DNA of 36,483 nt from positions 1 to 36,483 of the forward strand of contig JAFGON010000046.1 in NCBI GenBank assembly GCA_016926475.1. The letters run 5' to 3'. This stretch comes from a candidate division WOR-3 bacterium. Its GTDB lineage: Bacteria > SDB-A. The translations under genes and the position numbers were made by a program. Below, piece by piece: positions 9,570 to 33,044 of the stretch (position 1 is the stretch's first letter; each line of letters begins with the position of its first letter). The notes beneath the pieces are model-generated. The model was not told where the DNA came from. It saw only the letters and a program-made list of their open reading frames with translations, and ran no database searches.

Positions 9570-9611
9570 TATTTTTCCTTTGATGCTCGATATTATGGAA
9601 ATGTTGTGCTG

Positions 9612-9639
9612 ATTATACTTCAAAGGGATAGAAAATCAA
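9612..9639 (-). promoter_or_regulatory. promoter of the antiporter gene
   Basis: Read on the minus strand, TTGATT (9634-9639) is followed after 16 bp by a perfect TATAAT (9612-9617). Transcription would start near 9605, about 36 nt before the ATG at 9569. Confidence 0.6.
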
Positions 9640-16758: not shown

Positions 16759-17787
16759 TTAAACGCTGAAAAAGAATTCGACGACATCACCGTCGCGCAT
16801 AATGTATTCTTTGCCTTCCGACCTCACAAGATTTTGACTTTTTGCTTTTTGTATGTTTCCGGTTTTTTTGAGATCTTCAAAGTGTACTACTTGAGCCCTT
16901 ATAAAACCCCTTTCCAGGTCAGAATGAATTTTTCCAGCAGCTTGAGGCGCTTTGGATCCGCTTTTTGTCAACCATGCTCTGCTCTCTTTGGGGCCTGTAG
17001 TTAAAAAAGTGACAAGGTCGATTCCTTCAAGAAGTTTTTTAGCAAGTTCGATTTTACCGCCAGGTTTTATTCCGAAGTCCCTACGGAAATCATCGGCTTC
17101 ATCTTGTTTCATTTGGCATATTTCAAGTTCAAAATTCGAGCATATTGACACCGTCGGTATGCCTTTTTCAGTAATTTTCTTTGTAGAGTCTTCAGTCTTG
17201 TAAAGCCTCTCGTCAGAGTTCAACACCGCGAAAGCTTTCAAATGCGATACCAAGCCAATCCTTTCAGCCCATTCGAAATACTGCGGTTCGAGTTCATTTC
17301 TAAGAGGGGCATTATTCTCGAGGATAGGCAGAATTTTATCTGCCAGGATTTTTTTTTCGAGGTCTTCTATGTTAGTCCTCTTGAATTTGTTGTCGTTAAG
17401 CCTTAAAAGACGACCCTCAACCGTATGTAAATCCGAAAGGATAATAAAGGTTTCCAGAAGATCCAATTCCGACACAGGATCAGGTTCGCCAAGAAATCCC
17501 GATTGCGAAAAATTCCTGAGGCAATATAAAATTGCGTCTTTGCCTTTTGAGGAGGGAACGACTTGTTTTTCAAAAAAATCCTCATCTTCGACTCCGGATT
17601 TCGGAGCCGGAGTGTCCGCAATGCCGACCTTGGCGTAGACCTTTTTTTTGGACGAGCTCATTTGGACAAGCCAGTCAACCCTTTCGTCGGCAAGTTCGAT
17701 GACTCCCTTGGGGTTTTTTGATCCGGTCAAAAAATGAATAAGTGTTGATTTGCCGGAGCCTTTTCTACCTATTATTTGAATTTCCAA
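16759..17787 (-). CDS. divergent YchF/Obg-like P-loop NTPase with TGS domain
   Basis: A 342-residue protein close to YchF length (about 363). The C-terminal TGS part (about 258-342) is clearly YchF-like: FLTTGPKESRAWLTKSG, KAPQAAGKIHSDLERGFIRA, then GKEYIMRDGDVVEFFF. The N-terminal P-loop is G7-RKGSGKST instead of the usual LPNVGKST, and the G3 motif is ADTPAP rather than DxAGL. N190-SDE193 matches the NxxE element that makes YchF prefer ATP. YchF binds ribosomes and ATP and influences translation and oxidative stress. The start is TTG with GAGGGA upstream and lies 23 bases inside the preceding gene. It is the last gene of the long minus-strand operon, an unusual place for a translation factor. 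Confidence 0.82.
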   Translation of the reverse strand: MEIQIIGRKGSGKSTLIHFLTGSKNPKGVIELADERVDWLVQMSSSKKKVYAKVGIADTPAPKSGVEDEDFFEKQVVPSSKGKDAILYCLRNFSQSGFLGEPDPVSELDLLETFIILSDLHTVEGRLLRLNDNKFKRTNIEDLEKKILADKILPILENNAPLRNELEPQYFEWAERIGLVSHLKAFAVLNSDERLYKTEDSTKKITEKGIPTVSICSNFELEICQMKQDEADDFRRDFGIKPGGKIELAKKLLEGIDLVTFLTTGPKESRAWLTKSGSKAPQAAGKIHSDLERGFIRAQVVHFEDLKKTGNIQKAKSQNLVRSEGKEYIMRDGDVVEFFFSV

Positions 17788-18673
17788 GAATATCCCTCAA
17801 TTTATTTAAAATTTCTTCATCAGGGTTGTAAGACTCGGTGAAGAGGTTTATTTCGCTGAATTTCCACCCTGTAATACTGCCGTCTTCGTTTAATTCGAGG
17901 TCAATCAAACCGACCGAAGATAAACCAGTGTGAATTCTAAAATTTAGTGTGTGGTTCAGCGAACTCTCCCAGGTGCCTGCAAAACCGTCAAAACCGCCTA
18001 TTATTATGTCGATGCCGGCAATTGAATTTGCCGTCAGAGTGTCGTGCCTGAAACTCGAATGACTCAGAGCTATAACAATATCGCAATTCTCTTGGTTCAA
18101 AGAATCAAGCGCTATCGACAAGGCGTCGTTTTCTTTCAGAACTCGGTTTTCATTTAAAATCTCATGAGGCAAAAACCATTCGGCGTGGCTTGAAATGTAA
18201 CCCGTGACTCCTATTTTGACCCCGTTGATTTGGAAAATTCTAAACGGTTCAAAAATCCAATTGCCTGCAGAATCGACAAGAGAAGACGAGATGAATTCAC
18301 AATCCATTTCTTTTGAAATGCCCTCTAAGAACCGGACGCCTTTGAAAAGGTCGTCTATTCCGACAGACATGGCGTCGTATTCCATATCGCGTGCAACATA
18401 GATGCCGGCTTCAATTCTTCTTGTGGATCCTGCGGGAGAAAGCCCCCAAAAATTACCTGCGTCTAGTAACAAGTCTGGTTTTTCAACTTCGAGAAAAGTG
18501 CGAAGCGAAGCTGCGCTTCCCAGGGGAGGAGGAAAAGTAGGGCTTATCCATGTCGCTGTTGATGGCGTGTAATTTCCTTGAACGTCTGAGGTGAAACATA
18601 TTCTGATGTTTCGTGCAGAGACGGATTCAAGAGCCAAGAACAGGAGTAAAGAAGTCAGTTTAAGGGTTTTCAT
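17765..18673 (-). CDS. secreted 5'-nucleotidase-like metallophosphoesterase with degenerate metal site
   Basis: A 302-residue protein with a signal peptide (about 1-20). The order of segments follows the UshA/5'-nucleotidase metallophosphoesterase fold: FTSDVQGNY near 30, LLLDAGNFW at 69-75, a VGIDDL element at 104-109, IVIALSHSS, and DIIIGGFDG. Most metal ligands differ from the standard: D-x-H is D30-V-Q32, GD is G73-N74, the GNH(E/D) element is GIDD, and the GHxH element is GGFD. It may therefore use fewer metals or have lost catalysis and act as a binding protein. It overlaps the nuclease gene upstream by 14 bases and the YchF-like gene downstream by 23. Only the fold is confidently assigned. 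Confidence 0.68.
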   Translation of the reverse strand: MKTLKLTSLLLFLALESVSARNIRICFTSDVQGNYTPSTATWISPTFPPPLGSAASLRTFLEVEKPDLLLDAGNFWGLSPAGSTRRIEAGIYVARDMEYDAMSVGIDDLFKGVRFLEGISKEMDCEFISSSLVDSAGNWIFEPFRIFQINGVKIGVTGYISSHAEWFLPHEILNENRVLKENDALSIALDSLNQENCDIVIALSHSSFRHDTLTANSIAGIDIIIGGFDGFAGTWESSLNHTLNFRIHTGLSSVGLIDLELNEDGSITGWKFSEINLFTESYNPDEEILNKLRDILGNSNNR

Positions 18674-19250
18674 CTAACTCTTCCTCTTCTTCTTCTTCAG
18701 CGTCGAGTATAAGCTCTACCGTGCTGTGTTCTCGAATTTTATCGTAATATTCCCTAACTTCCCTGTATAACTCGGCGGATTTAATCATCACGGATATCTC
18801 GTTGTTTCTCGCGAGGGCGTAATAAGACCAGTTTGTTGAGCCTATGACGAGAATGTCTTCGTCAATGAGCACCATTTTGTTGTGGCTAGTCACGTCAGGC
18901 GGATCCCAGAGTACGCTTACGCCTCCTTCTCTCAGAAGATTCGCCAGCTGAAGATTCTGATAGGTGCTTCCGAGGTTCCAGGAAGAAGCGTCGAGAATCA
19001 CTTCCACTCTTACCCCCCTGCTTACGGCGTCAAAAAGATCCTGGTACAAAAGTTCATTGACACCTTCAGGATGGTCGGGATAAGTCCTGGCTTGATACAT
19101 GACGATCAAAATTTCATTTTCGGCTTTTTGGATGGCTTCGTGCAGAACCGGGTAATAATCTCTGTTTGCCATCATTACGACATCTTCAGCTTCATGAGCC
19201 GAAAGGGCCAGCGCCGAAAATGCTATCAGAAGGACCGCAAATATTCTCAT
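18660..19250 (-). CDS. secreted single-HKD phospholipase D family protein (Nuc-like endonuclease)
   Basis: At 196 residues with a signal peptide (about 1-18) and one HKD motif, H123-N-K125-x4-D130 followed by GSTNWS at 137-142, this matches the small Nuc/EndA subfamily of the PLD superfamily. Those proteins dimerise to build one active site and degrade DNA or RNA without metal ions; Salmonella Nuc is periplasmic and of similar size. FDAVSRGVRVEVILDASS and the LREGGVSVL segment are in the expected positions. A tail of consecutive glutamates is unusual for the family. ATG with GAGGAG upstream. It follows an outer-membrane protein gene with a 9-base gap, so the location fits the periplasm or surface. 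Confidence 0.85.
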   Translation of the reverse strand: MRIFAVLLIAFSALALSAHEAEDVVMMANRDYYPVLHEAIQKAENEILIVMYQARTYPDHPEGVNELLYQDLFDAVSRGVRVEVILDASSWNLGSTYQNLQLANLLREGGVSVLWDPPDVTSHNKMVLIDEDILVIGSTNWSYYALARNNEISVMIKSAELYREVREYYDKIREHSTVELILDAEEEEEEELDENP

Positions 19251-19259
19251 TTTTTCTCC

Positions 19260-20351
19260 TCAAATCAAATATGTGATGCCGCAGATAAGGCCGATAGTGC
19301 TTTCTCTGACCGTTTTTTCAGATTCGAAAGGCTTTGTATAGTCTCTCTGAGCGTATCGGAAAGACATTGAAAAAGTAGTTGGATAAAAGTCGTACGAAAA
19401 ACCGGTAGAGAAGAAAAATGAATTCGCTTGATCGAGGCTGAAATTTTCTTCATACCCTCCGCCGAGTGAAAACACGGTTTTGTTGTAGAACTTGTTTTCC
19501 AAACCGAAAAACAGCGCATTGACATCATCAAGAGAATCGTTGATCTGGCTGTAGAAGCTACGCGTGTAATCCAGATGGATTTTCGCGGGAATAAATCCTG
19601 GTACCTCTACGCATAATCCCAGTGTTGATTTTATCGGAGTGTTAGTGGTCTCGTCACTCGTCGATATCGCCAGTCCGAAAGAATAGCGGTCAAAAGAGGA
19701 CAGGACTCCTCCTTTGAAAACAAAAGCAGCATTCTCGGTTTTGTCCGTAGTTATCGTGTCAATTCTTCCGGCTTCAAAATAAATTATTTCGTATGTTTTG
19801 GTCCTGTTTAGCAGAAGATAATCGACTTCAACTCCGGCGGAAAAATTGTCTGAAAAATAACGGGCTGTCAGCCCGAATGCGTTTCCCTGGCCTGAAGATT
19901 TTTTAAATGTCTCGCTGACGACCTGGTAGAATGAATTCCTCTCGGTGTATTTGTACTCGTAATCATAATCCATGAATTGAGACGTGAGTAACCCGGCGCC
20001 GAATGTGCCGGTGTTGAAATACAAAATGGCCGAATAAGGAGTTAGATTCGATTTGCTGTTCTGCGATACCGTCAGCATGCCCATCCTGTTGTTGTAGCTG
20101 TCGAAAATCGTGACGACTTCAGATTCTGTCGTGTAATTCATTCCGACGTTCACGGCAAAATAATATTTTCCGGGCACGGAGCAAGCCGGATTTATCAGAA
20201 CATCCGTTGTGACTCCCGCTTGACCTCTTGCTGCGGTTTGGGTCATGCACTGATATATGGGTTTCCCGGTGTTCAGGTAATCTATGTATCCCCCGGAAAA
20301 GAGTACCGCCGGAAACAAAGCCAAGAATATGATGATAGGGCTTAATTTCAT
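19260..20351 (-). CDS. outer-membrane beta-barrel protein, unknown function
   Basis: A 363-residue protein with a signal peptide (about 1-19) and a series of alternating hydrophobic/polar strands, many ending in aromatic residues (for example SFFFSTGFSYDFYPTTFSMSF). The N-terminal part of the mature protein, ARGQAGVTTDVLINPACSVPG, resembles the lid/plug region of PorV/FadL-type barrels (…A..NPA…). ATG with AAGGAG 7 bases upstream. It lies 21 bases after the HhH-barrel gene and 9 bases before the nuclease gene, inside the operon. I do not recognise a named family beyond this barrel group. Confidence 0.7.
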   Translation of the reverse strand: MKLSPIIIFLALFPAVLFSGGYIDYLNTGKPIYQCMTQTAARGQAGVTTDVLINPACSVPGKYYFAVNVGMNYTTESEVVTIFDSYNNRMGMLTVSQNSKSNLTPYSAILYFNTGTFGAGLLTSQFMDYDYEYKYTERNSFYQVVSETFKKSSGQGNAFGLTARYFSDNFSAGVEVDYLLLNRTKTYEIIYFEAGRIDTITTDKTENAAFVFKGGVLSSFDRYSFGLAISTSDETTNTPIKSTLGLCVEVPGFIPAKIHLDYTRSFYSQINDSLDDVNALFFGLENKFYNKTVFSLGGGYEENFSLDQANSFFFSTGFSYDFYPTTFSMSFRYAQRDYTKPFESEKTVRESTIGLICGITYLI

Positions 20352-20372
20352 TTTTTTCTCCTTGGTTTATTT

Positions 20373-22757
20373 CTAAAACCTGTAGTCCATCAGAATGTAT
20401 AAATAAAAATTCGATGAAACATCATCAAAACCGGCTCCGTTGTATAGCTGCCCGTCTGCAAAGTGGAGCTCTTCCGAGCCGTAATAGGGGCTGTATGAAA
20501 GATCATGCCTGACTTTGAACCGCAGGAAAATATTGTCGTTCAGCCTCTGCCGCGCCGCAAAATAAGTTTTGATGCCGTGACCATAGAGAAAATCTATCCC
20601 CATGTCTTCGAATTCCCACATGCTCATCTCTTCGCCGTTCCAGATGTCCATACCTCCGAGAACAGAAAATCCATCGTAGAATTTATGCTCGTATCTTCCC
20701 GACAGATAATAACCGGATATAATTTCAGAATTTCCTTTTCCTTCACGCTGAGAAAGCATGACCTGGCTTCTCGCCAAAGAAAACGAGATGTAATCGCTGT
20801 TTTGGAGGAAAAATCTGAGTGTCAGTTCTGTCTCGTTGGTCACGGAAGAACTGTAGTATGAAGGTTTTTGCAGTTTTTTGTTCTGCCACTTCTGCCTCAG
20901 CCTAAAACTCATTGGATAGGAAAACCTGTATTCAACCGTAGCCTGTGATCTGAAATTGTCCAAACCTGTAGCAAGATTTTTCCAAATGTCGACATACGCT
21001 TTGGTGATTGTCAGGCTTCTCGTTATCTGATAGCGTGTCTCGATATAAAATCCCTGTTCAGCTTTCGGAACGGGGTCGTATTGTAGGTATGAATAAACCG
21101 GGTTTAAAAGCCTGTAGGGTTTTTCAAATTCGGTGTCCTCAAAACGCCTTTGCTCGGCAAATCCTCTTGAGAAAGGATTGTCGTAACCTATGTCGTAGTG
21201 CCTGAAGATGAAGTCCAAGTATATGAATTCTTTTTGAACTCTCGATGAAATCAAATAAGCTTTCTTGCCGTTTTTCTGACCTGCTAACTCGCCTGACATC
21301 TGAAAAATTCCCGAAAAAACTGTTCTTGCGGATACTGAATAAGCCTGTCTTTGTTGTCCGGTCGAAGAGAGAAGGAAGTTTCCGTCTTCCAAGTTGTCTC
21401 TGTCTCCCGGTATGTCAAGGAGAGAAGTGTCCGGCAGAAAATATTTGTCGTATTCCAAAGCATAAAAATACGCTTCAACACATGTTCCGGGCAAATACTT
21501 GTCGAGTCTGAAGGAGATTCCCGCCCCTGCAAGCTTTTCGGTCAAATTTTCGGAATACTTTTCGATCTCCCAGGGAAATGAAAACAGAGCGAGTGCGGTG
21601 TCATCGGATGACAAAATCGCGTCTCGCTTTGAATAACTGACAAAAAGCAGGGGATAGGCGATATCCATGAAGTTAAGTTCCGCCGCCGCTCCTCTGAATC
21701 CGTATTGGCTGTTTGGGGTCAGAGCCGGGTATAAACCCCTGATCCTCTGAGTTGTCCTCGCTCTGAATTCCGAGGAATTGTCCATGAAAAGGCCTTCTGA
21801 GAGTGTCAATCTATAATCGCCTGCTATAAATTTTTGAACGAATCCCCAGTGTTCGAACAACACGTATCCTTGAAAGGTATTTTTACCTGCTTCTTCCGTA
21901 TTGTATGCGGCGCCGGCTCTGAACCTGTCAGAATACCCTCCTTTCGCTGAAATTGAGGCGTTGAAATCTTCTTTTATCGACGAGATGCTCTGAAAGTCCG
22001 ATTCCAAGGACATTCTAAGTGAATCAATCATACCCGGGGTCCAGCCGCTCAAAGTCAAATCTTCGTATATTGAAGATTCGATATCTTCCAACGCGCCTAT
22101 TCTTTGCTCAAGTTCATTTTTGTAGTAATTTAAATCGCCTTCTTCATTCCGGAGGTTTTCCAATTCGCTTTTGTATCTGACAATACCCCAGTATCTGTCT
22201 TCTATTGAATCGTCGGGTTCGAAAACATAGTATCTGATGTTTCTGTAGCCGTAGGAAGACAGATTTTCAGTGTTTCTTAAATGGCTCAAGTACCTGTAAT
22301 CACCCCATTTCTGTCTGTGGCTGACAATGGCGGACGCGTCTATCAAAGAAACTCCGTAAAGAGAATTCAATTGCTGAACAGTCGCTTTGTTCAGGTCGAG
22401 AGGGAAAAGAAGCAAATTCTCCCAGTAGTCAATTGCCGAATTTCCGGGGTCGTCTTCAGAAGCGAGACGGTCCTTGAGCTGGTCTATTCTGAGGTTTCTC
22501 CAATCGGCAGGCGCGAGGGGTGTAATCGAAAATTCCTTTAAAATGTCTGAATAGCTTTGGGGGTCCATATCCTTGACGTATATCAGATCCGTAAACGTCC
22601 TGAAAGAGCCGTGTTCGATTCTGTATTCGATAATGTTTTCCGCAATCGAGCTGTCGAGCGGAAGAGAATATAGTTCCTGCAGTGAAACCGAATTCAAATC
22701 TTTGCGTTTGATTTCTTCGGTTCCGGATATCAGAAATAAAATTATTAGATATATCAC
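20373..22757 (-). CDS. outer-membrane barrel protein with two ComEA-like helix-hairpin-helix modules
   Basis: A 794-residue protein. After a short signal-like segment (about 1-12) come two helix-hairpin-helix modules of the ComEA type: DLNSVSLQELYSLP with an HGSFRTFTDLIYV follow-up (20-77), and DLNKATVQQLNSLYGV with WGDYRYLSHL (121-175). In ComEA such modules bind double-stranded DNA during uptake. A helical stretch (about 190-240) leads into a long region of beta strands ending in YLYILMDYRF, with the C-terminal Phe of outer-membrane barrels. The GTG start overlaps the previous stop (GTGA). A DNA-binding module fused to a barrel, beside a nuclease gene, suggests binding of DNA at the outer membrane; that is inference. 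Confidence 0.8.
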   Translation of the reverse strand: MIYLIILFLISGTEEIKRKDLNSVSLQELYSLPLDSSIAENIIEYRIEHGSFRTFTDLIYVKDMDPQSYSDILKEFSITPLAPADWRNLRIDQLKDRLASEDDPGNSAIDYWENLLLFPLDLNKATVQQLNSLYGVSLIDASAIVSHRQKWGDYRYLSHLRNTENLSSYGYRNIRYYVFEPDDSIEDRYWGIVRYKSELENLRNEEGDLNYYKNELEQRIGALEDIESSIYEDLTLSGWTPGMIDSLRMSLESDFQSISSIKEDFNASISAKGGYSDRFRAGAAYNTEEAGKNTFQGYVLFEHWGFVQKFIAGDYRLTLSEGLFMDNSSEFRARTTQRIRGLYPALTPNSQYGFRGAAAELNFMDIAYPLLFVSYSKRDAILSSDDTALALFSFPWEIEKYSENLTEKLAGAGISFRLDKYLPGTCVEAYFYALEYDKYFLPDTSLLDIPGDRDNLEDGNFLLSSTGQQRQAYSVSARTVFSGIFQMSGELAGQKNGKKAYLISSRVQKEFIYLDFIFRHYDIGYDNPFSRGFAEQRRFEDTEFEKPYRLLNPVYSYLQYDPVPKAEQGFYIETRYQITRSLTITKAYVDIWKNLATGLDNFRSQATVEYRFSYPMSFRLRQKWQNKKLQKPSYYSSSVTNETELTLRFFLQNSDYISFSLARSQVMLSQREGKGNSEIISGYYLSGRYEHKFYDGFSVLGGMDIWNGEEMSMWEFEDMGIDFLYGHGIKTYFAARQRLNDNIFLRFKVRHDLSYSPYYGSEELHFADGQLYNGAGFDDVSSNFYLYILMDYRF

Positions 22758-23611
22758 AATGTATAACCCATGGACATAATATGAGTGAAAGGAAGTATTG
22801 AATGCTGAACGATTGAATAATCGACCTCGAAATGAGCGTATTTAACCGTCAAACCCGCTGAAAATCTCACGGGTTCTGTCTGAATCCCCGCTCTTAGCAA
22901 GAGGTATTCTGAAACCCCGTATTCCTGGCCGAATGAAACTCTGAGGGGATATCCCATTTCCTGCCTGAAATCCAACGTGGTGTTGATGTTTTCTGCAGGG
23001 TGAAAAGCGACGCCAGCCCTAACCACGCGAGGGAGGTATTCTAGTGATTCTTTTCCGAGAGTCGGAGAATTCAAGTTTCTAACTGAGAACCCTATGTTCC
23101 ATATCCCGTATAGAGTGCCGATTAATCCAGCGTCCAATCCAAGAGCGTAGGCGGAGCCGAACCTTTCCTGTTTGAGGGAATAAGCGTTTACAGAAGCTCC
23201 AGCGTAAAGGTATTCATTCATTATGACAGCGTGTGTCAGAGACAAATACAATTCTCTGTGAAGTTGGGCGTCGGACGACACCAAAAAGCTGTCGGCATTT
23301 CTGAACTCACCTTTCAGAGAAAGCCATCTGGCGTTGAGGGCGGTCGCTCCGAGAGGGTTTTCGAAAACGATAGAAGCGCCCGCTGAATTGATGAGTCCAA
23401 AAGGTTTTTTATAAAAAACCTTCATTTGTGTAGCCCGAAAAAAAGCTATCCCGGCTGGATTATAGACAGCTTCGAGGGGATCTGCAGGACAAGCCGTGAC
23501 AGCTTCAGCCATGCCTTCGGCTCTGGGAGAAGTTTCGACGTCTTCAAAAACCGGCAGTATAAGAGACGGTATGAAGAGTCCAAAAAGGATTGAGTAAAAA
23601 CATTTTTTCAT
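22754..23611 (-). CDS. PorV/PorQ-family outer-membrane protein
   Basis: A 285-residue barrel protein with a signal peptide (about 1-20). The mature N-terminus SPRAEGMAEAVTA...DPLEAVYNPAGIAFF is the hallmark of the PorV/PorQ (UPF0164, FadL-like) group, whose usual form is GARAxGMGGA...D..A.xxNPAGLA. In type IX secretion PorV receives cargo bearing a C-terminal sorting domain and shuttles it to the surface. Here the gene lies 3 bases after one for a secreted protein with such a tail, which fits that job but does not prove a type IX system. ATG with GGAG 7 bases upstream; its stop overlaps the GTG of the following gene. Smaller than PorV of Porphyromonas (about 390 residues). Confidence 0.8.
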   Translation of the reverse strand: MKKCFYSILFGLFIPSLILPVFEDVETSPRAEGMAEAVTACPADPLEAVYNPAGIAFFRATQMKVFYKKPFGLINSAGASIVFENPLGATALNARWLSLKGEFRNADSFLVSSDAQLHRELYLSLTHAVIMNEYLYAGASVNAYSLKQERFGSAYALGLDAGLIGTLYGIWNIGFSVRNLNSPTLGKESLEYLPRVVRAGVAFHPAENINTTLDFRQEMGYPLRVSFGQEYGVSEYLLLRAGIQTEPVRFSAGLTVKYAHFEVDYSIVQHSILPFTHIMSMGYTL

Positions 23612-23614
23612 ATT

Positions 23615-26572
23615 TCACTCCAAAGGGGTTCCGACCACAAAAGGCCGATTAATTGATGTTTCTGAGCCGTCCGGCTTTTTGAAGGTGTAGTTAATAAAAT
23701 ATATCCCTATTGACGCTGAATTCCCATAATCTGTCAAGCCGTCCCATAGAATCAACTGAGGCCCGCTTGAAGTATTTTCGAGCAATGTTCTGACAAGCCT
23801 GCCTTCCATGTCAAATATGCGAAGCGCTATTCTTCCGCCCGTCGGAGAATTCAGGAAAATATTCAGAATCTCTCCCAAAGAGAAAGATATTGGATTTGGG
23901 TAAACGGTCATTTCCTGTTCTTCCGACACGGGACCAAAGTCGGCAATTTGAATATCCGGGATAATTCTCGGCAAAAGCTGGTAGCCTGAGGCGGGTGGAT
24001 TGTCGTATGTGTATTGACCGATTATTCCGCAGACATTGATTATTTGGCTTGTCTGGAGACCTGAAAGGTCTATTCCGGCGTCATCGTTGACTCTGACACT
24101 GATCAAAGTGCGACCGTTTCTTACAGTGAAATCTTTTCCGGATCCGCTCTGCTGAGGGAGCGTGACCACAACAGCATTTGAAACTCGGGCTAGTCTTCCT
24201 TCGACGGTTTCGTAAAGTCCCTGATTCGATACCAGGTCCAAAGTGTCCGGAAGCGGTCTTTGAAAACCGATTTTCAGAACAGAATCGGGAGAAGAATAGA
24301 CGATTTCTGTAACCCCGTTGTATTCCGTCACTACTCCCCTGACGACGACTTCAGTTCCGATTACAAATGAAACATTTCCTTCGTCTTCGGAAGAAAACAC
24401 GTTGACACCTCCCGAAGCGTCCTCAATCCAAAAAGAAGTTTTGGTCGTTGATCCGTTGAAGACGCTTGAAGGTCCTGTAACAACACCCGCCACGACTACA
24501 AACTCGCCCTGGTGCGCTGAGCTGTAACCTCCTGAATCAGGCGACTGCGCGTCGGATATAGTCATGACAGACCAGACTTCCGGAGAGTCGTATATTTCCT
24601 GGAGATAGAAAGGATCATCAAGGGCTGTTTTTGTCTTCAGCGTGAATTTTCCGAAAGAGCCTGGGGCTGTCACGTTTTTAAAGACAATCCCGCAGATGCT
24701 GTCCGGAGGAAGGGAGAGGCCGCTGACGAAAACAACGAATTTTCTTGTCACTCCGTCTCCAGCTATGGAGTCGACGAAACCGGATTGTCCAACTTCGACA
24801 TCTCCGACAGTTCCGCTCCAATGCCAAGCCGTGTCTGATAATTCAAAAGAAGCGAAATTAAGAGTGTCCATCTCGGCTTTTAATACTATGGTAATATCTC
24901 CGGTGGAAGATACCGGAACCGAGGAAAGGAAAGGTTCGGCGAAACCGCTTCCGTTACCGCCTTTTCTGATGTCGAAAAGGCCCCTCGGCATCAGTTGATA
25001 ACCTGATGTGTATGGGGATGAAGGGGAATACTGGGATACGACTCCGGTTATGGAAAAACCGTCTTCCGGGACAGGTTTGCCGGCAATGTCGGATGCTTCT
25101 ATTCGTAACTCGAAAGTTCCGGTTGGGTCTTGAATCGTCATATTCTGTCCGGTTTGGGGAAACACGGGAGACGTCCTCAGCAAATTATCTATTTTAACTA
25201 GCCGGCCTTCGAAATTTTCAACTCCACCGGTTCCCTCAAGAGAAAGCGTTGAGCAGGTGACAGTCAAAGGTTTTGGTTGTTGCGAGGGGTGAGGGCCAGA
25301 AACAATCGACGCAGGTGACAGTTCAGTCAGGCCGTTCCATTGGGTCACAGTCCCCTGAAAACTGGCGCTGTCTCCTATGGACAATCCTGACCCCGGGTTG
25401 TAAACGCATACTCCGGCGGTGTTGTCCTCAAGAAAATATTGTCCTCCCAATTCTCCCGCCACGGTCATAATTCCGGTGATGTTCACTGTCTCGCCGAGAA
25501 GAAGGGGAATTCCCTGGGAGTTGTTCTGCCGCAGAAGAGATATCGGTATCGTTCCGTCAGACCTGCTTACTAAAATTTCTGGAAAATCAGAAATAGGGGA
25601 TAGGGCAGTGTCTGATTGAGAACCTGTGAAAACTTGAAGAGTTTCGACTCCTGAAACCCGAGGCGTTACGTCTGCGAGATTCAGAGTGCCGTTGAAAATC
25701 TGGTTTACGCAAGCGTTTTCTATGGAGAGTGTGTCTCCAGCAATGGTTAAAACCGCGTTCAGAAAGCCTGCGCCGGAAAAGGTGTGCGATCCCGTAAAGT
25801 CAAAAGTTTCTGGAATAATGATTCTGACACTGTTTATCTGCCCGAAATCAGTCGAAAAACGGATTGATAGATTTTCCGGCACGCCCTCCAGGAGCTGGTT
25901 TGGATATAGAGTCACTTTTCCGATTCCGGAGAATGACCTGTAAATGTCAAAATCTCCCCTGGGCTCAAGTTTGAAATCGTCGTAAGAATAGTTTAGAATT
26001 CCTACGATTGCCGCGAGCGTATCGTTGAGAGACGGCATAGTGTAACTTGCTTCATCGTTAACCCTACAAGGGCCTGATCCGTCGTCAATTTCCCACTCTC
26101 CATAACCGAGGGTCGTGTCGGTGACGACAGGATTCATCACGCCGACAAGTACACCTTCGTACATTTCAGCGGTGTCTGGATTCGAAGTCGCCAAAGCGCT
26201 CGTATTGACTATTGTAGGAGCCGGCAGGTCGCACCCTGAAGCGAGAACGGTCAGAGACGACACGTACCCTATTTCAGTTTTACCCCAGTACTCGGTCACT
26301 GTTCCAGTCACCCTGATCGAATCTCCAGTGTTTACAGTGTAATAAGTGGAATAAATTAGAATTCCGCTGTAAGGACCCAATGAATCCTGAATGTATATCG
26401 GGTCGTTTGTGAATGTTCCGTTCTGGACTGTGACTATTCCTGAAGTCGTCACCACAGAACCGATATACTGTCCGGTCGAATCCGATTGAATCTCCCTGAT
26501 TCTGACGTCGGCAGATAAAGTAAAAACCCGCAGAACAAGGAAAATTAAAAAAAGACGGCGCATGTATGCCAT
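23615..26572 (-). CDS. large secreted protein with about six OB-fold domains and a FlgD/type-A sorting-like C-terminus
   Basis: A 985-residue protein with a signal peptide (about 1-21). Three homologous units lie at about 23-212, 350-537 and 682-877. Each holds two OB-fold-like halves: the first with GTVTEYWGKTEI, GTVTQWNGLTEL or GVVTEYNGVTEI, the second closing with LEPRGDFDI, YQLMPRGLFDI or YQLLPRIIPDI. Such OB-folds (YhcR/DUF5689 type) occur in secreted nucleases, but no nuclease domain is seen. Ig-like spacers separate the units. The last 98 residues (YPNP..., RIFDMEGRLVRTLL, WDGLTDYGNSASIGIYF) form a FlgD-like/type-A sorting domain. ATG preceded by AAGGAGG. Likely surface-exposed and nucleic-acid or ligand binding. 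Confidence 0.82.
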   Translation of the reverse strand: MAYMRRLFLIFLVLRVFTLSADVRIREIQSDSTGQYIGSVVTTSGIVTVQNGTFTNDPIYIQDSLGPYSGILIYSTYYTVNTGDSIRVTGTVTEYWGKTEIGYVSSLTVLASGCDLPAPTIVNTSALATSNPDTAEMYEGVLVGVMNPVVTDTTLGYGEWEIDDGSGPCRVNDEASYTMPSLNDTLAAIVGILNYSYDDFKLEPRGDFDIYRSFSGIGKVTLYPNQLLEGVPENLSIRFSTDFGQINSVRIIIPETFDFTGSHTFSGAGFLNAVLTIAGDTLSIENACVNQIFNGTLNLADVTPRVSGVETLQVFTGSQSDTALSPISDFPEILVSRSDGTIPISLLRQNNSQGIPLLLGETVNITGIMTVAGELGGQYFLEDNTAGVCVYNPGSGLSIGDSASFQGTVTQWNGLTELSPASIVSGPHPSQQPKPLTVTCSTLSLEGTGGVENFEGRLVKIDNLLRTSPVFPQTGQNMTIQDPTGTFELRIEASDIAGKPVPEDGFSITGVVSQYSPSSPYTSGYQLMPRGLFDIRKGGNGSGFAEPFLSSVPVSSTGDITIVLKAEMDTLNFASFELSDTAWHWSGTVGDVEVGQSGFVDSIAGDGVTRKFVVFVSGLSLPPDSICGIVFKNVTAPGSFGKFTLKTKTALDDPFYLQEIYDSPEVWSVMTISDAQSPDSGGYSSAHQGEFVVVAGVVTGPSSVFNGSTTKTSFWIEDASGGVNVFSSEDEGNVSFVIGTEVVVRGVVTEYNGVTEIVYSSPDSVLKIGFQRPLPDTLDLVSNQGLYETVEGRLARVSNAVVVTLPQQSGSGKDFTVRNGRTLISVRVNDDAGIDLSGLQTSQIINVCGIIGQYTYDNPPASGYQLLPRIIPDIQIADFGPVSEEQEMTVYPNPISFSLGEILNIFLNSPTGGRIALRIFDMEGRLVRTLLENTSSGPQLILWDGLTDYGNSASIGIYFINYTFKKPDGSETSINRPFVVGTPLE

Positions 26573-26593
26573 TAAAAGCCTCCTTTGAGATTT

Positions 26594-27184
26594 TTACTTT
26601 ATTTCGCTGACATTGTAGCCAGATTTATCGAATTTTCTGCCGCACTTCACGCATATGCAGGACTCATGCTTGTCTTTGTCAGTTGAAAATGTCAGGTTTG
26701 TTCCGCATTCACATATCCATCCCTTGATGCTTGCCGGAACACCCATGACAAGAGCATAGTCGGGCACGTCTTTGGTCACGACAGCTCCTGCTGCCACCAT
26801 TGCCCACTTACCGACTGTGTTGCCGCAGACTATTGTCGAGTTCGCTCCCAAAGTCGCCCCTTTTTTTACCTTGGTCGAGACCCATTTACCGCCTTTTGGG
26901 TAAGGGGCTCTCGGGTTGATGTCGTTTGTGAAAACCATCGAAGGTCCGGCGAAAACTCCGTCTTCGAGCGTTACCATGGCGTAGACGGAGACGTTGTTCT
27001 GAAGCTTCACCCCGTCGCCTAGAACGGCTTTGTCATCTACATAGCAGTTTTGGCTTATGGAACAATCTTTTCCTATAACTGCTCCGGATCTGATATGGCT
27101 GAAATGCCAGATTTTAGTCCCCTCGCCGATTTGTGCCCCTTCATCGACAACAGCTGTCTCGTGCGCGTAGTATTTTTTTTCCAA
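26594..27184 (-). CDS. WbpD/WlbB-type UDP-sugar N-acetyltransferase with zinc-ribbon tail
   Basis: A 196-residue left-handed beta-helix acetyltransferase. It reads almost like the WbpD/WlbB consensus: VVDEGAQIGEGTKIWHFSHI, NCYVDDKAVLGDGVKLQNNV, SVYAMVTLEDGVFAGPSMVF-TNDINPR, then GATLGANSTIVCG and GAVVTKDVPDYALVMGVPA. These enzymes acetylate the 3-amino group of a UDP-2-acetamido-3-amino glucuronic acid, a step to di-acetamido-uronic acid sugars of surface polysaccharides. Cysteines 158/160 and 178/181 form a likely zinc ribbon seen in many homologues. The TTG start has AAGGAG 7 bases upstream and lies 2 bases after the epimerase stop. Other Wbp enzymes are not in the window. Confidence 0.88.
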   Translation of the reverse strand: MEKKYYAHETAVVDEGAQIGEGTKIWHFSHIRSGAVIGKDCSISQNCYVDDKAVLGDGVKLQNNVSVYAMVTLEDGVFAGPSMVFTNDINPRAPYPKGGKWVSTKVKKGATLGANSTIVCGNTVGKWAMVAAGAVVTKDVPDYALVMGVPASIKGWICECGTNLTFSTDKDKHESCICVKCGRKFDKSGYNVSEIK

Positions 27185-27186
27185 CT

Positions 27187-28107
27187 CTAATCTCCTTTTG
27201 AGAGAAAATATTCAACCGTTTTCTTTAAGCCTTCTTCTAAAGAGGTGGTTGGTTCCCAGCCGAGGTCTTTTTTCGCCTTCGCGAAGCTGGCGACGCTTTT
27301 TTTAAGCTCTCCTGGTCTGGTGTCCATCAGAACAGGTTCAGGAATTTCTTTAAAAAATTTCCTCATCTCTCCAAACAATTCGGAGACAGAGGTCGCCACA
27401 CCGGTTGAAATATTGTAGGTTTCATGGGAACCTGCAATAAGGGCTTTCGAAACGGCTTTGACGACGTCTCCTACGAAGACATAATCCCTCTGAAGTTTTC
27501 CATGCCCGTAGAGGATCGATTGTTTTTTCGATATCATCTGATTGGCGAAAATAGCTACCACTCCGGCTTCCCCGTGAGGATCCTGCCTTGGTCCATAGAC
27601 GTTTGTGAAACGGAGGACAGTGAAGTCTATACCGAAATTGTGGGAGTATGACCTCAGGTAATGCTCTCCGGCGAGTTTCGAGACTCCGTATGGCGAGACG
27701 GGTACAGGAGGATTGTTTTCATCCGCTGGCGATTCTGTGTCGCCGTACATCACTCCTGCGGAAGAGACGAAGATAATTTTTTTCACCTCGGATTTAACAG
27801 CGGAATCGAGAAGGTTTAAAAGCCCTTGTATGTTTACTTTCATGTCAAACGCAGGGTCGGCGACGGATTTTCTGACGTCGATTTGAGCGGCGAAATGAAT
27901 GACGGTGTCGAATTTATTTTTGCCGAAAATCTGATCGAAATCGCAATCGATTATGTCAGCTGTTATCAGTTTCGCTTTTTTTGTCAGGTTTTCGATTTTA
28001 CCTGATGAAAGGTTGTCAACCACTAAAATTTCGTGCCCTGATTTTACCAATTCATCGCAAGTGTTGGACCCTATAAAGCCGGCTCCGCCGGTCACCAAAA
28101 TTTTCAT
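27187..28107 (-). CDS. NAD-dependent nucleotide-sugar epimerase/dehydratase (extended SDR, GalE-like)
   Basis: A 306-residue extended short-chain dehydrogenase. The NAD site is GGAGFIG at 7-13, the acidic end of beta-2 is D31 in VVDNLSSG, the active site has S115-S116 and Y140-GVSK144, and RFTNVYGPRQDPHGEAGVVAIF is the substrate-region phrase of UDP-glucose/UDP-GlcNAc 4-epimerases. All catalytic residues are present. ATG 28107 is chosen for its GAAGGAG 6 bases upstream and because the promoter at 28136-28164 would start transcription downstream of an earlier in-frame TTG. It is the first gene of the nine-gene operon and, with the acetyltransferase after it, probably makes an activated sugar for the cell surface. 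Confidence 0.92.
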   Translation of the reverse strand: MKILVTGGAGFIGSNTCDELVKSGHEILVVDNLSSGKIENLTKKAKLITADIIDCDFDQIFGKNKFDTVIHFAAQIDVRKSVADPAFDMKVNIQGLLNLLDSAVKSEVKKIIFVSSAGVMYGDTESPADENNPPVPVSPYGVSKLAGEHYLRSYSHNFGIDFTVLRFTNVYGPRQDPHGEAGVVAIFANQMISKKQSILYGHGKLQRDYVFVGDVVKAVSKALIAGSHETYNISTGVATSVSELFGEMRKFFKEIPEPVLMDTRPGELKKSVASFAKAKKDLGWEPTTSLEEGLKKTVEYFLSKGD

Positions 28108-28135: not shown

Positions 28136-28164
28136 AAAATAAATTATCCTTTTCGTTCTGTCAA
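28136..28164 (-). promoter_or_regulatory. promoter of the nine-gene minus-strand operon
   Basis: On the minus strand a perfect TTGACA (28159-28164) is followed after 17 bp by TATTTT (28136-28141, 4 of 6). The transcript would start near 28129, giving a leader of about 22 nt to the ATG at 28107. No other comparable promoter was noticed in the operon's gene junctions. Confidence 0.6.
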
Positions 28165-28616: not shown

Positions 28617-31600
28617 ATGAAGCTGATAAATCGCCGTTACAGGGTAGAAGGAGAAATCGGACAGGGGTCTTACGGCGTAATATACAAAGTCTCGGATCTT
28701 CAGGACGAAAAAAATCCTTCCAAAACACTGAAAATCTACAACACAGACAAATTGGTCAACCAGGATCTCGACGCTTTTAAAAACGAGTATTTCTACACCA
28801 AAAGCATTGATCTGCCCTGCGCAGTAAAAGCCCACACATTTGAAAAGATATACAACATTGACGGTTTTTCTTTTTACGGCAACTACTATTTTTACACAAT
28901 GAACTATATCAGAGGAAAGAACATTTCGTCGTTAAAGCTTTCGACAAAAAAAGAACGTTCTCTTTTGGCAGAAAGGCTTTTGTTCACCCTTAAGTGGCTT
29001 GAATCAAATGGTTTCGGTCACAGCGATTTACACCGGGAAAATATTTTGGTCGATGAGAATTCCCAGATAATCCTTTTGGATTTCATTCAACCAAAAATAA
29101 TTCAACTCGAAGAAGACGATTTAAAAGCTTTCATAAAAGAAATCACCGGACATGATTTAGCAAAGGCATTAATAGACCATCAAAAACTGAAGTTTAGAAA
29201 TATTTGCCCCAAAGCTTTTTTTGACTTTGTCAGAAAATATTACAGGATGAACATAGGGACTATTGGACATGTCAAAAGTCATTTTGACAGAGCTTTGACC
29301 CTTTCAGAAAAGGCAAAGATCTTCAGAATAAACGCAGTTAATTACAAAGATAATTATTACGATATACTCAATGGTTATTTTAAATCATACTCTGAAATCA
29401 ACGAATATTTTTACATAGAGCTCGATTTATCAAAAGATCCGCTCACTTATTTCAACGATTTTAGAAATCAGATGATGAAATCGCTCGATTTAAGGGGTAT
29501 TAAGTCTTCAGAAATCACAAAAGACGAGACGATTATAGACAAAGACTCAAAAGCCCTCGACCATATAATTTCATCTATTGAGAAACTGTCCTTATACGGC
29601 AAAGTCGCTGTCAGTTTCAAGGGTAATAACCGAAAAAACGAACTGACAGAGACAATCGAGGCTGTCGAAGAAAGATTCAAGGGTGAAGGTCTCTTGATTC
29701 TTACTCCGATATTGTCAGATTCTGGCAAATCAAGCGGATTCTATAATATTTGCGAACCTCCGGACAGCGACAAGTTTGAAAATTTTCTCAAGGAAAAAAT
29801 AAAGAATATCTTCTACGCTTTAGATGTTGACGACATAATAGACTACATGCGCAAAAATGGAAATTATGATATTTGCAGAATTCTTGAAAACGTTTTGAGA
29901 TCCAACAGGTCTTTGAAAAGCAGTTCAAGAACTCTGAATCTTATAAATAAAAACGCTTTAAACCGTATTTTTGAAGACAAATACCGCCGGATCAAAGATA
30001 GCACCGATTACGAATATTTTTTCAGCTATTTTGAATTGCTTAAAAGGCCTGTCGATATATCTTTGTTGAAATTGTTTTTGGGCGACGGGCCTGGAAAATC
30101 TCTGGATGAAATCATATATGACCTTCTCGGCTTAAACCTTTTGGCCTTTCAGCCAGGCGGAGCATTGGACTACTACGACCGGACCACCGAAGTGAAAGTC
30201 CGTTCATACTTTAAAAAAGAAGATTTCAAAAATAAGGCTTCTTACGACGTGATAAAGTATTTAGAGAAAAAAAACCTCAGGATTGACGAGGAAAAACTTC
30301 TTCTGAATTTATACTTTTCGACAAGTCAATTTTTTGAGTATTCACGTTTTCTGTTTTCCCATTTCATCGAACCATTCAGAAATTTAAACAGCATAGAGAA
30401 AATCGCCGAAGATTTTATTTATAAAATCGAATCCAAAAATCTCTTGAAATCAGTAAACCTTCCCCAGGGTCTGCCGAGAGAAACCATAAAATATATCTAC
30501 ATAAAATTGAAGAACAAGTTCGACCTATCTCGTAAGATCGAGAATCTTTTAGATTTTGTAGAAAAGGACCAACCCTGTGCATTTATCAAATACAACGTTC
30601 TGTTCGACGTATTCAGCCAATACCTGAACTCGGGGGACATGGAGAATTCAAAATCAATTTATGACGTTATTTCTGTCGAAAAGGAAAATTTGGGCAAGTA
30701 TCAGAACCTGGCATTTTTGATATATCGTGCAAAGTTCTACACTCTGTTTTCCGAGTTTGAAAAATCAATATCAGACCTGAGGGATTTTTTCCGTAATGTT
30801 CACAAGGAAAAGGATGACAAGACAAAGTATTTAACTTTGAAAGCTCTTGAAATATTGGCTGACCTCTACCATAAACAGGGAAAAATGCAAAAATTCGCGA
30901 ATACTATTAGAATTTTCCTTGAAAAGGCAAAAGTTGTATCGGACGAAAACGGGGATTTAAGCTACTTTTTCTCTGCAAATACAGATTATGCTTATTACCA
31001 TTTCAATTACGGCAAGAGGTCTGAAGCAAAGAAATATTTCCAAAAAGCCCTTGAACTCGCACAAACATACAAAGACTACAACGACCTGATTCTCGCTTCA
31101 AACAACCTCGCAGCAATCGAAAACGACACTAAAATCACCCTCGAATACCTGAGAGACGCGTTGAAGTATTCAAATATGATAGGGGAGAACGTATACATAT
31201 ACCTTGTTATTTCAAACATACTGTCTCTCAACATAGATCCTGTTAAAAAATACGGATTCATCAGGGATAATATGAGCATAATTCTGAACTGCAACACGGA
31301 CCATGAGATTTCTGTTAAATTCTGCCTTGATCTTTACTACTCTATCATTTGCATCTTGTTGTCACTTGACAAAAAAGAAGAATTGAGTTTTTTCTTTGAG
31401 AAATTGGAAAAAATCGAAATCGAAAAACAAAGAATGCCTGACGCTTTTCTGTTGAAGAAAATCGTTCAGACCTTCTATCAGATTAGTTTAAATGGCTATA
31501 AAAAAGATTACTTTAATATTTATTATAAATTATTGGATGAATTTAACGATATATACAACTATTCTATAATTGTTTATATGTATATCAACAGCCTTTTCTA

Positions 31601-33044
31601 CCACCTGGACGACAGTCAAATTGTTTTTATTTCAAAAAAAATTATCAGTTTGTTTAAAGATATTTTTGCCGGTGACGAGATAAACAGCGTCAGAATGTTC
31701 GTAAAACTTAAAACGTCGAAATTTAAAAAAGAGTCCCTGAAAAGGTACATTGAGAGGTATGTCTCCGGTCTTTCGAATTTGAATTATCTCTCATACAGGA
31801 TAATTTTCATTTTATCCCAAGCGCTGAAGGGGATGGGTGATGACGAATACAAAAATCTGCTCTCCTATTCCGCAGAAGAGCTTGTGAAAACCAGGGACAG
31901 TTTCAAAAACAAGAGGTTGTTTAAAAAAACCATGTGTTTTCGTATTTTATGTTATTTTAAAAATGATTTTCCATCGGAGTACAACCGTTTAATTGAAAAG
32001 AAGGAAAAATTTCAATTCACAAAAAATTCTTTCCTCGATTTGAACAGACAATTGCAGTTAAACTATTTTTCAGAAAATCAAGTGTTGATAAAGAATGTCA
32101 TATCGGCTGTTTTGCGTTCTTTGAATTACGATAGAGGAGCTTTTTTTACATCTCTTCAGAACAAAATCCCGCAAATTGTCGTCTACAGAAAAAAATATTA
32201 CTATTCAGAGGACGATCCCTATTTTATCGATAAAATCCCTCTTGAAAAGTCAACGGAAGTTTTCACCGGACTTAACGAAGACAAATATTCCTCAATCAAA
32301 TCTTTCATCTCTATTCCTGTAGTAAACGAGTTGTATTACAAGAGGTTCATGCACCGGATCAACAGGGAAAAATCTAGAAGATCTTCTCTCACCAAAAGTC
32401 TTTTATACGAAAACAACATAATCGACGGTTTGATTTACCTTGACAAAAAAAATGGCTTATCGGACAGTTTCAACCCCGAATATCTCAATTTATTGTCATT
32501 TACGTTGTCACAGTACTGGAATTACAACAGGGCTGAAAAGCTTTATATGAGAGACGGGCTGACGAATTTATATTTGAGAAACGTTTTTTTGAATAAGTTA
32601 AGGGAGATGATCCACAGAGAAGAAGAAAGAGTGCATAAATTGTCTTTGATAATGGTGGATATTGACGATTTCAAAAATGTAAACGATCTGTTTGGGCACT
32701 CAAGGGGCGATTATGTGCTGAAAAAACTCTCTGAAATAATGGTAAAAAAAATCAGATCATCAGATTTGGTTGGAAGATACGGAGGTGAAGAGTTTTTGAT
32801 TGCTCTTCCGAACACAAACATCCATTCTGCTGTTGTCGTAGCTCAAAAGATCAGAGAAGTTATAGAAAAATCCCAAATAATAGGCGACGCTATGAAACTC
32901 ACTATCAGCTGCGGGGTCGCAGAATATCCAAAAGATTCTCAATGGCTTGAAGAACTTATAGAAAAGACGGATAAATATTTGATAAAAGCTAAAAATCTAG
33001 GTAAAAACCGTGTTGTATCGTCAATAGACGAAAATTCAACTTAG
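28617..33044 (+). CDS. multidomain signalling protein: kinase-like, degenerate AAA, TPR-like, GAF-like and GGDEF diguanylate cyclase
   Basis: A 1475-residue protein without membrane segments. Residues 1-230 form a protein-kinase-like domain: glycine loop G15-Q-G17-SY-G20, lysine K39, catalytic H135-SDLHREN142 with D137, and D155-F-I in place of DFG. Residues about 250-560 have the rhythm of the AAA/STAND module usual after such kinases, but no P-loop is visible. Helical TPR-like repeats (about 600-1130; EAKKYFQKALELAQ) follow, then a GAF-like region (about 1155-1300) and a GGDEF domain with G1389-GEEF and an inhibitory site R1380-SSD1383 in correct spacing. The output is likely c-di-GMP under product control; the input is unknown. 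ATG directly abuts the previous stop. Confidence 0.85.
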   Translation: MKLINRRYRVEGEIGQGSYGVIYKVSDLQDEKNPSKTLKIYNTDKLVNQDLDAFKNEYFYTKSIDLPCAVKAHTFEKIYNIDGFSFYGNYYFYTMNYIRGKNISSLKLSTKKERSLLAERLLFTLKWLESNGFGHSDLHRENILVDENSQIILLDFIQPKIIQLEEDDLKAFIKEITGHDLAKALIDHQKLKFRNICPKAFFDFVRKYYRMNIGTIGHVKSHFDRALTLSEKAKIFRINAVNYKDNYYDILNGYFKSYSEINEYFYIELDLSKDPLTYFNDFRNQMMKSLDLRGIKSSEITKDETIIDKDSKALDHIISSIEKLSLYGKVAVSFKGNNRKNELTETIEAVEERFKGEGLLILTPILSDSGKSSGFYNICEPPDSDKFENFLKEKIKNIFYALDVDDIIDYMRKNGNYDICRILENVLRSNRSLKSSSRTLNLINKNALNRIFEDKYRRIKDSTDYEYFFSYFELLKRPVDISLLKLFLGDGPGKSLDEIIYDLLGLNLLAFQPGGALDYYDRTTEVKVRSYFKKEDFKNKASYDVIKYLEKKNLRIDEEKLLLNLYFSTSQFFEYSRFLFSHFIEPFRNLNSIEKIAEDFIYKIESKNLLKSVNLPQGLPRETIKYIYIKLKNKFDLSRKIENLLDFVEKDQPCAFIKYNVLFDVFSQYLNSGDMENSKSIYDVISVEKENLGKYQNLAFLIYRAKFYTLFSEFEKSISDLRDFFRNVHKEKDDKTKYLTLKALEILADLYHKQGKMQKFANTIRIFLEKAKVVSDENGDLSYFFSANTDYAYYHFNYGKRSEAKKYFQKALELAQTYKDYNDLILASNNLAAIENDTKITLEYLRDALKYSNMIGENVYIYLVISNILSLNIDPVKKYGFIRDNMSIILNCNTDHEISVKFCLDLYYSIICILLSLDKKEELSFFFEKLEKIEIEKQRMPDAFLLKKIVQTFYQISLNGYKKDYFNIYYKLLDEFNDIYNYSIIVYMYINSLFYHLDDSQIVFISKKIISLFKDIFAGDEINSVRMFVKLKTSKFKKESLKRYIERYVSGLSNLNYLSYRIIFILSQALKGMGDDEYKNLLSYSAEELVKTRDSFKNKRLFKKTMCFRILCYFKNDFPSEYNRLIEKKEKFQFTKNSFLDLNRQLQLNYFSENQVLIKNVISAVLRSLNYDRGAFFTSLQNKIPQIVVYRKKYYYSEDDPYFIDKIPLEKSTEVFTGLNEDKYSSIKSFISIPVVNELYYKRFMHRINREKSRRSSLTKSLLYENNIIDGLIYLDKKNGLSDSFNPEYLNLLSFTLSQYWNYNRAEKLYMRDGLTNLYLRNVFLNKLREMIHREEERVHKLSLIMVDIDDFKNVNDLFGHSRGDYVLKKLSEIMVKKIRSSDLVGRYGGEEFLIALPNTNIHSAVVVAQKIREVIEKSQIIGDAMKLTISCGVAEYPKDSQWLEELIEKTDKYLIKAKNLGKNRVVSSIDENST

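Follow-up and report, generated by a model that had tools for sequence, protein, structure and literature searches.

We analysed a 36,483-nucleotide contig (hereafter the window) from the 2.15 Mb genome of a candidate division WOR-3 bacterium (assembly GCA_016926475.1, contig JAFGON010000046.1), in which nine open reading frames (ORFs) on the minus strand include a predicted outer-membrane barrel carrying helix-hairpin-helix (HhH) modules. A first-pass annotation, made from the sequence alone, had read the middle six genes of this operon as a likely surface system for DNA capture and for degradation or uptake. The nine ORFs lie where that annotation placed them, and their junctions, read 5' to 3' (+2, +21, +3, -4, +21, +9, -14 and -23 bases), span the range that it gave. 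Pfam and NCBIfam support the protein families of Table 1, barrel 2 apart, with the metallophosphatase-fold protein closest to UshA/SoxB. The promoter that it marked upstream is present as a sequence match, but such sites occur in the region at close to chance frequency (20 found, 14.6 expected, s.d. 4.5).

Table 1. Features of the nine-gene locus, in order of transcription, with the upstream promoter match. PLD, phospholipase D; T9SS, type IX secretion system.
Feature	Position in window	Strand	Remarks
Sigma-70-like promoter match, TTGACA-17-TATTTT	28136..28164	-	upstream of operon
NAD-dependent sugar-nucleotide epimerase/dehydratase	27187..28107	-	operon gene 1; clade-specific; Pfam/NCBIfam
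Hexapeptide acyltransferase (NeuD/PglB-like)	26594..27184	-	clade-specific; Pfam/NCBIfam
Core gene 1: secreted OB-fold/DUF5689 protein of several domains, T9SS/FlgD-like C-terminal tail	23615..26572	-	
Core gene 2: PorV/PorQ-like barrel, probably serving as a dedicated shuttle or anchor	22754..23611	-	NF033709 E = 5e-15
Core gene 3: HhH-barrel, ~24 strands, periplasmic double HhH domain, 4/4 GhG hairpins lost	20373..22757	-	
Core gene 4: small FadL/PorV-type barrel (barrel 2)	19260..20351	-	
NucT-like PLD nuclease, signal peptide, HxK(x)4D(x)6GSxN intact	18660..19250	-	only in WOR-3 loci
Core gene 5, decayed: 5'-nucleotidase-fold protein, C-terminal domain and metal ligands lost	17765..18673	-	
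YchF-like GTPase/ATPase with YchF/TGS-type C-terminus, overlapping operon end	16759..17787	-	clade-specific position

To assess how far this arrangement is shared, named genomes were scanned, which gave 72 HhH-barrel loci, and profile searches were then run on all ORFs around them; presence counts use only loci with enough flank (eligible loci). Homologues of the HhH-barrel occur at more than 70 loci in about ten little-studied phyla, with carriers in WOR-3, Edwardsbacteria, Cloacimonadota, Gemmatimonadota, Calditrichota, Eisenbacteria, Krumholzibacteriota, Zixibacteria and others. The shared gene order is OB/lamin-tail secreted protein, PorV-like barrel, HhH-barrel, FadL-type barrel 2 and 5'-nucleotidase. 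A PorV-like gene adjoins the HhH-barrel gene in 60 of 65 eligible loci, and the OB gene (47/55), barrel 2 (60/66) and the 5'-nucleotidase (47/54, against a chance expectation of roughly 0.1-0.3% of loci) are nearly as constant. All five genes stand in order at 33 of the 43 distant loci with enough flank, and the gaps between core genes are short (medians of -4 to 22 bases, most below 100 bases). Whole-genome searches recovered the entire nine-gene block in the three closest genomes, and the OB-PorV-HhH trio in very distant genomes as well. The epimerase, acyltransferase and YchF-like genes are neighbours of the core in no family but that of the window, and the full set of nine is confined to the 4 closest genomes. 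It is the five core genes that form the ancient unit.

In a quick tree with some long branches, the HhH-barrels grouped mostly by phylum (15 changes, minimum 13), suggesting that the five-gene unit is old and mainly vertically inherited. No relatives of the HhH-barrel were found in a scan of viral contigs or in a plasmid search, so there is no sign of phage or plasmid carriage. Because five of the six middle genes stay linked across phyla, we rejected the alternative of an unrelated string of envelope genes. The link proposed between the HhH-barrel and the PLD nuclease is narrow by comparison, the two being neighbours in only 6 of 75 loci. Among close relatives of the window's genome, L027 bears the label WOR-3 and L028 the label 'Desulfuromonas sp. 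SDB', the latter at odds with the tree; the titles of L028, L046, L080 and L091 (Desulfuromonas, Caldisericaceae, Fibrobacter and Puniceispirillum, respectively) all disagree with it and probably reflect mislabelled or mixed bins.

The PorV-like barrel resembles its namesake at family level only (NF033709, 55.8 bits; cut-off 90). Barrel 2 has no family match in the window copy, and 7 of 24 homologues match Toluene_X/FadL. A SprA frame (412.5 bits) is present in the window's genome, and of 46 carrier genomes searched, 45 have SprA, the exception being a 1.2 Mb assembly. In a panel of 60 genomes, 15 were SprA-positive and all 8 operon carriers were among these 15 (Fisher p = 2.5e-6; 1.9e-4 when the family of the window is treated as a single case). 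The pairing of T9SS cargo genes with their own dedicated shuttle is established in Flavobacterium (PMC12618676), and we infer a similar surface location and shuttle-cargo pairing for the OB and PorV-like proteins. Like the Bacteroidota pairs of cargo and PorV or PorP/SprF shuttle, the operon occurs with SprA and sets a PorV-like gene beside a secreted protein with a sorting-like tail. Unlike them, it adds the ~24-strand HhH-barrel, the FadL-type barrel 2 and a hydrolase, its sorting tail is weak, and the carriers found lie outside the Bacteroidota.

The window OB protein matches DUF5689 (PF18942) at 44.6 bits, above the cut-off of 28.6, and its relatives also carry lamin-tail domains. In the OB region there is a match to the ExeM/NucH family of nucleases (NF033681, 6e-23), and the OB profile matches both the N-terminal part of an EEP-domain nuclease structure and the C-terminal tail of PorU (E = 4e-4). 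Matches to sorting-tail families are weak (TIGR04183, 21.4 bits, cut-off 23; PF18962, 19.7 bits, cut-off 27). AlphaFold2 predicted a chain of beta domains (pLDDT 82), for which a fold search returned only generic beta-domain chains and no specific relative.

The HhH-barrel has two genuine HHH_3 modules by Pfam, and its AlphaFold2 model (pLDDT 81) places an all-helical HhH domain ahead of ~24 strands of at least 8 residues. A search of this model against PDB folds gave no specific relative, the hits being large barrels of a generic kind (ushers, TonB receptors, MtrB and FadL, with query TM-scores up to ~0.35). G-h-G hairpins of HhH proteins contact the DNA backbone. The window protein shares with ComEA the HHH_3 fold and the two modules, but its modules are fused to a barrel and lack these hairpins; the family carries LPIS, PGhT, NVSP and a GL turn instead, whereas ComEA-like proteins that these genomes encode on their own retain the hairpins (PGIGP, GIG). 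The fold that the first-pass annotation called a ComEA-like DNA-binding module is therefore real, but with the contact hairpins lost, DNA capture by this part is unsupported, and a plug or protein-binding module is more likely. The net charge of the HhH region was also tried as a discriminator and failed, some real ComEA-like domains being near neutral; the hairpin test did discriminate.

The enzyme position of the operon differs between lineages. In most relatives the 5'-nucleotidase stands alone there with its five metal motifs intact; these proteins combine Metallophos and 5_nucleotid_C domains and best match true 5'-nucleotidase structures. The PLD gene, found only in WOR-3-like loci (the window, its three kin, L036 and L038), belongs to family PLDc_2 and retains in 6/6 copies the HxK(x)4D(x)6GSxN signature of NucT; its nearest solved relatives include mitochondrial cardiolipin hydrolase. 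NucT has been linked to transformation as well as to the salvage of purines from DNA (PMC5714352). The window PLD resembles Helicobacter pylori NucT as a secreted single-HKD protein with an identical signature, but is acidic overall, in place of a positively charged groove, and is encoded within a barrel operon. Nuclease action is plausible, and the gene is a late addition to the operon.

In exactly the six PLD loci, the nucleotidase is reduced to 274-302 aa from about 500-590 aa and has lost its metal ligands. The window copy (302 aa) reads DVQ for DxH, GN for GD, GIDD for GNH(D/E), SH at H and GGFDG for GGHxH, and lacks the C-terminal domain PF02872. Truncated and stripped of ligands, it appears to be a dead remnant: the 5'-nucleotidase fold noted at first is there, the active site is not. 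Another full-length nucleotidase is encoded elsewhere in the genome. Nucleotidases have also decayed without a PLD gene in a Calditrichota group (L046, L050, L082 and L090) and in L029; that catalytic residues were lost more than once suggests a retained non-catalytic role.

Several kinds of gene recur on the same strand near the operon. Ugp-like ABC importer genes (permeases, binding protein and sometimes the ATPase) lie near 10-11 loci (L030, L032, L035, L038, L042, L051-L053, L055, L067 and L075) and are absent near most; in L038, the first permease gene overlaps the nucleotidase gene by 4 bases. Their binding proteins score far below the equivalog cut-offs of the family, so the label says little about substrate. 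ComEC-type metallo-beta-lactamase proteins occur near the operon at six loci, together with one true ComEC; the secreted ones are at L051 (2-1276), L053, L055, L067 (2-916), L075 and L088 (14990-16093 and 18026-19387), and L088 has, besides these two, a second HhH-barrel-like ORF of 600 aa. RecJ-like DHH proteins are found at four Edwardsbacteria-type loci. Hydrolases of nucleic acids or nucleotides thus recur beside the operon and come from several unrelated enzyme families. Short proteins that look CAP-domain-like by eye lie between barrel 2 and the nucleotidase in L096 and L097.

Among the clade-specific genes of the window, the YchF-like protein (PF06071, E = 3e-33) is a diverged relative, well under the YchF equivalog cut-off (TIGR00092, 171.8 bits; cut-off 279.2). 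Divergent from the operon, positions 28617-33044 encode a 1475-aa protein with an N-terminal protein kinase and a C-terminal GGDEF domain, and two related genomes (L015 and L016) have an ORF of near-equal length at the same position. Positions 7461-9623 encode a fusion of a sodium/proton exchanger with a PTS EIIA_2 domain, and single-linkage clustering groups it with similar ORFs close to the operon at about a dozen distant loci.

The reading that we favour, tentatively and at somewhat less than an even chance, is a T9SS-linked surface module that scavenges extracellular nucleic acids or nucleotides and has an exchangeable enzyme slot. It builds on the five-gene operon, the co-occurrence with SprA, the change of enzyme, the loss of HhH hairpins and the loss of the active site in the window nucleotidase, all established at the level of sequence; from these we infer substrate and import. 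Further points in its favour are the match of the OB region to nucleases, the NucT signature of the PLD protein, the other nucleic-acid hydrolases and the Ugp-like importer genes that recur near the operon, and the precedent of T9SS cargo genes paired with shuttles. The OB/lamin-tail protein would cross the outer membrane through SprA and be passed by the PorV-like barrel, as its dedicated shuttle, to the HhH-barrel, whose periplasmic HhH domain would serve as a plug or protein-binding platform and not as a DNA clamp. The enzyme in the slot would then cut or dephosphorylate the captured substrate; this would be a 5'-nucleotidase in most phyla and, in the WOR-3 lineage that includes the window and has a decayed nucleotidase, the NucT-like PLD. 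Products would pass the barrels and be imported. The outline of the earlier proposal, in which DNA is captured, cut and imported, survives in this form, with cutting by the PLD protein plausible; capture of DNA by the HhH modules and an active nucleotidase in the window do not.

A number of observations weigh against the scavenging reading. Canonical GhG was found in 1 of 285 hairpins across ~70 HhH-barrel homologues, and the proteins concerned are acidic: the HhH domain has a median pI of 5.0, the OB protein a mean pI of 4.4 and the PLD core a pI of 4.6-5.7, unlike NucT, whose groove is reported to be positively charged (PMC5714352). In the window OB protein, the sorting tail scores just under the NCBIfam cut-off. 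The nucleotidase of the window operon is predicted to be inactive, and its decay without a PLD gene in the Calditrichota and L029 implies that the activity is dispensable there. The association of PLD presence with nucleotidase decay amounts to one or two independent events on the tree, and with the six PLD loci representing one or two gains it is striking but statistically untestable. Finally, the Ugp-like importer points to organophosphates besides DNA as possible targets.

This last point leads to the view that phospholipid head groups, glycerophosphodiesters or nucleotide sugars are scavenged through the FadL-type barrels, the PLD and UshA-like enzymes and the Ugp-like importer. The importer genes beside the operon and the kinship of the PLD protein with cardiolipin hydrolase fit such a role, as do barrels of this type, but the full-length nucleotidases best match true 5'-nucleotidases, the OB protein resembles the OB regions of nucleases and most loci have no importer genes nearby; we consider it very unlikely. 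The operon could also serve T9SS surface display or adhesion and have nothing to do with nucleic acids: the PorV-like barrel and the HhH-barrel would anchor the OB/lamin-tail protein, with the enzyme gene only travelling along. Such a module would account for the co-occurrence with T9SS, for the acidic proteins with lost HhH contacts and for the repeated decay of nucleotidases beside barrels that were kept, and has precedent in known dedicated shuttle-cargo pairs. It sits poorly with the frequency of the 5'-nucleotidase at eligible loci, with five metal motifs intact in most, and with the further nucleic-acid hydrolases nearby, and seems fairly unlikely.

The operon might instead be the outer-membrane DNA-uptake step of a natural-transformation machine that feeds ComEC, as in Bacteroidota. 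Transformation of Riemerella anatipestifer fails without any one of a DUF5689 protein, an outer-membrane beta-barrel and a protein with three HhH modules, and needs ComEC, DprA and ComF besides; the screen turned up essential genes with no homology to known machines (PMC8459023, the only paper naming DUF5689 in the open-access literature searched). This trio (RA0C_RS04920, RS04915 and RS02645) is the closest tested parallel, in that one process draws on a surface protein with DUF5689, a barrel in the outer membrane and HhH modules, the barrel and HhH parts being alike by description. In the window the HhH modules and barrel are fused, GhG is lost, and PorV, a second barrel and a nucleotidase or PLD are added. 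The DUF5689 match above cut-off and the implication of NucT in transformation also speak for this role; ComEC occurs in the window's genome, and 12 of 13 genomes searched have it, but the presence of a near-ubiquitous protein says little. Against it, the operon HhH hairpins are degenerate where intact stand-alone ComEA-like proteins exist in the same genomes, a conserved nucleotidase suits nutrition better than the import of intact DNA, and secretins in 31 of 33 carriers leave no uptake gap for the operon to fill. On the whole, we judge transformation unlikely. The same secretin count led us to reject the idea that the operon replaces a missing PilQ.

For the scavenging module, known sets offer a partial likeness. 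DNA-foragers in sediment combine secreted nucleases with 5'-nucleotidases (PMC8289736). With the sets of Shewanella and Lutibacter, made up of secreted nucleases and periplasmic 5'-nucleotidases, the operon has in common an OB region akin to that of ExeM/NucH nucleases and a member of the 5'-nucleotidase family, but the window OB protein has no nuclease domain and the barrels are co-encoded. The first-pass annotation knew of no described system with this set, and likewise we found no description of the five-gene operon in the open-access literature searched. At its boldest, the operon would be an undescribed outer-membrane machine, old in many phyla related to the Fibrobacterota-Chlorobiota-Bacteroidota group, in which T9SS displays an OB/DUF5689 receptor on a ~24-strand barrel with a repurposed ComEA-like domain, and which takes up DNA or its fragments with an enzyme swapped by lineage (nucleotidase, PLD or ComEC-type hydrolases); we think this somewhat unlikely. 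For the largely undescribed passage of DNA or its breakdown products across the outer membrane in this wide group, the operon is a defined, testable candidate. That the catalytic gene decays in place while the barrels persist indicates a structural core that is separable from the enzyme.

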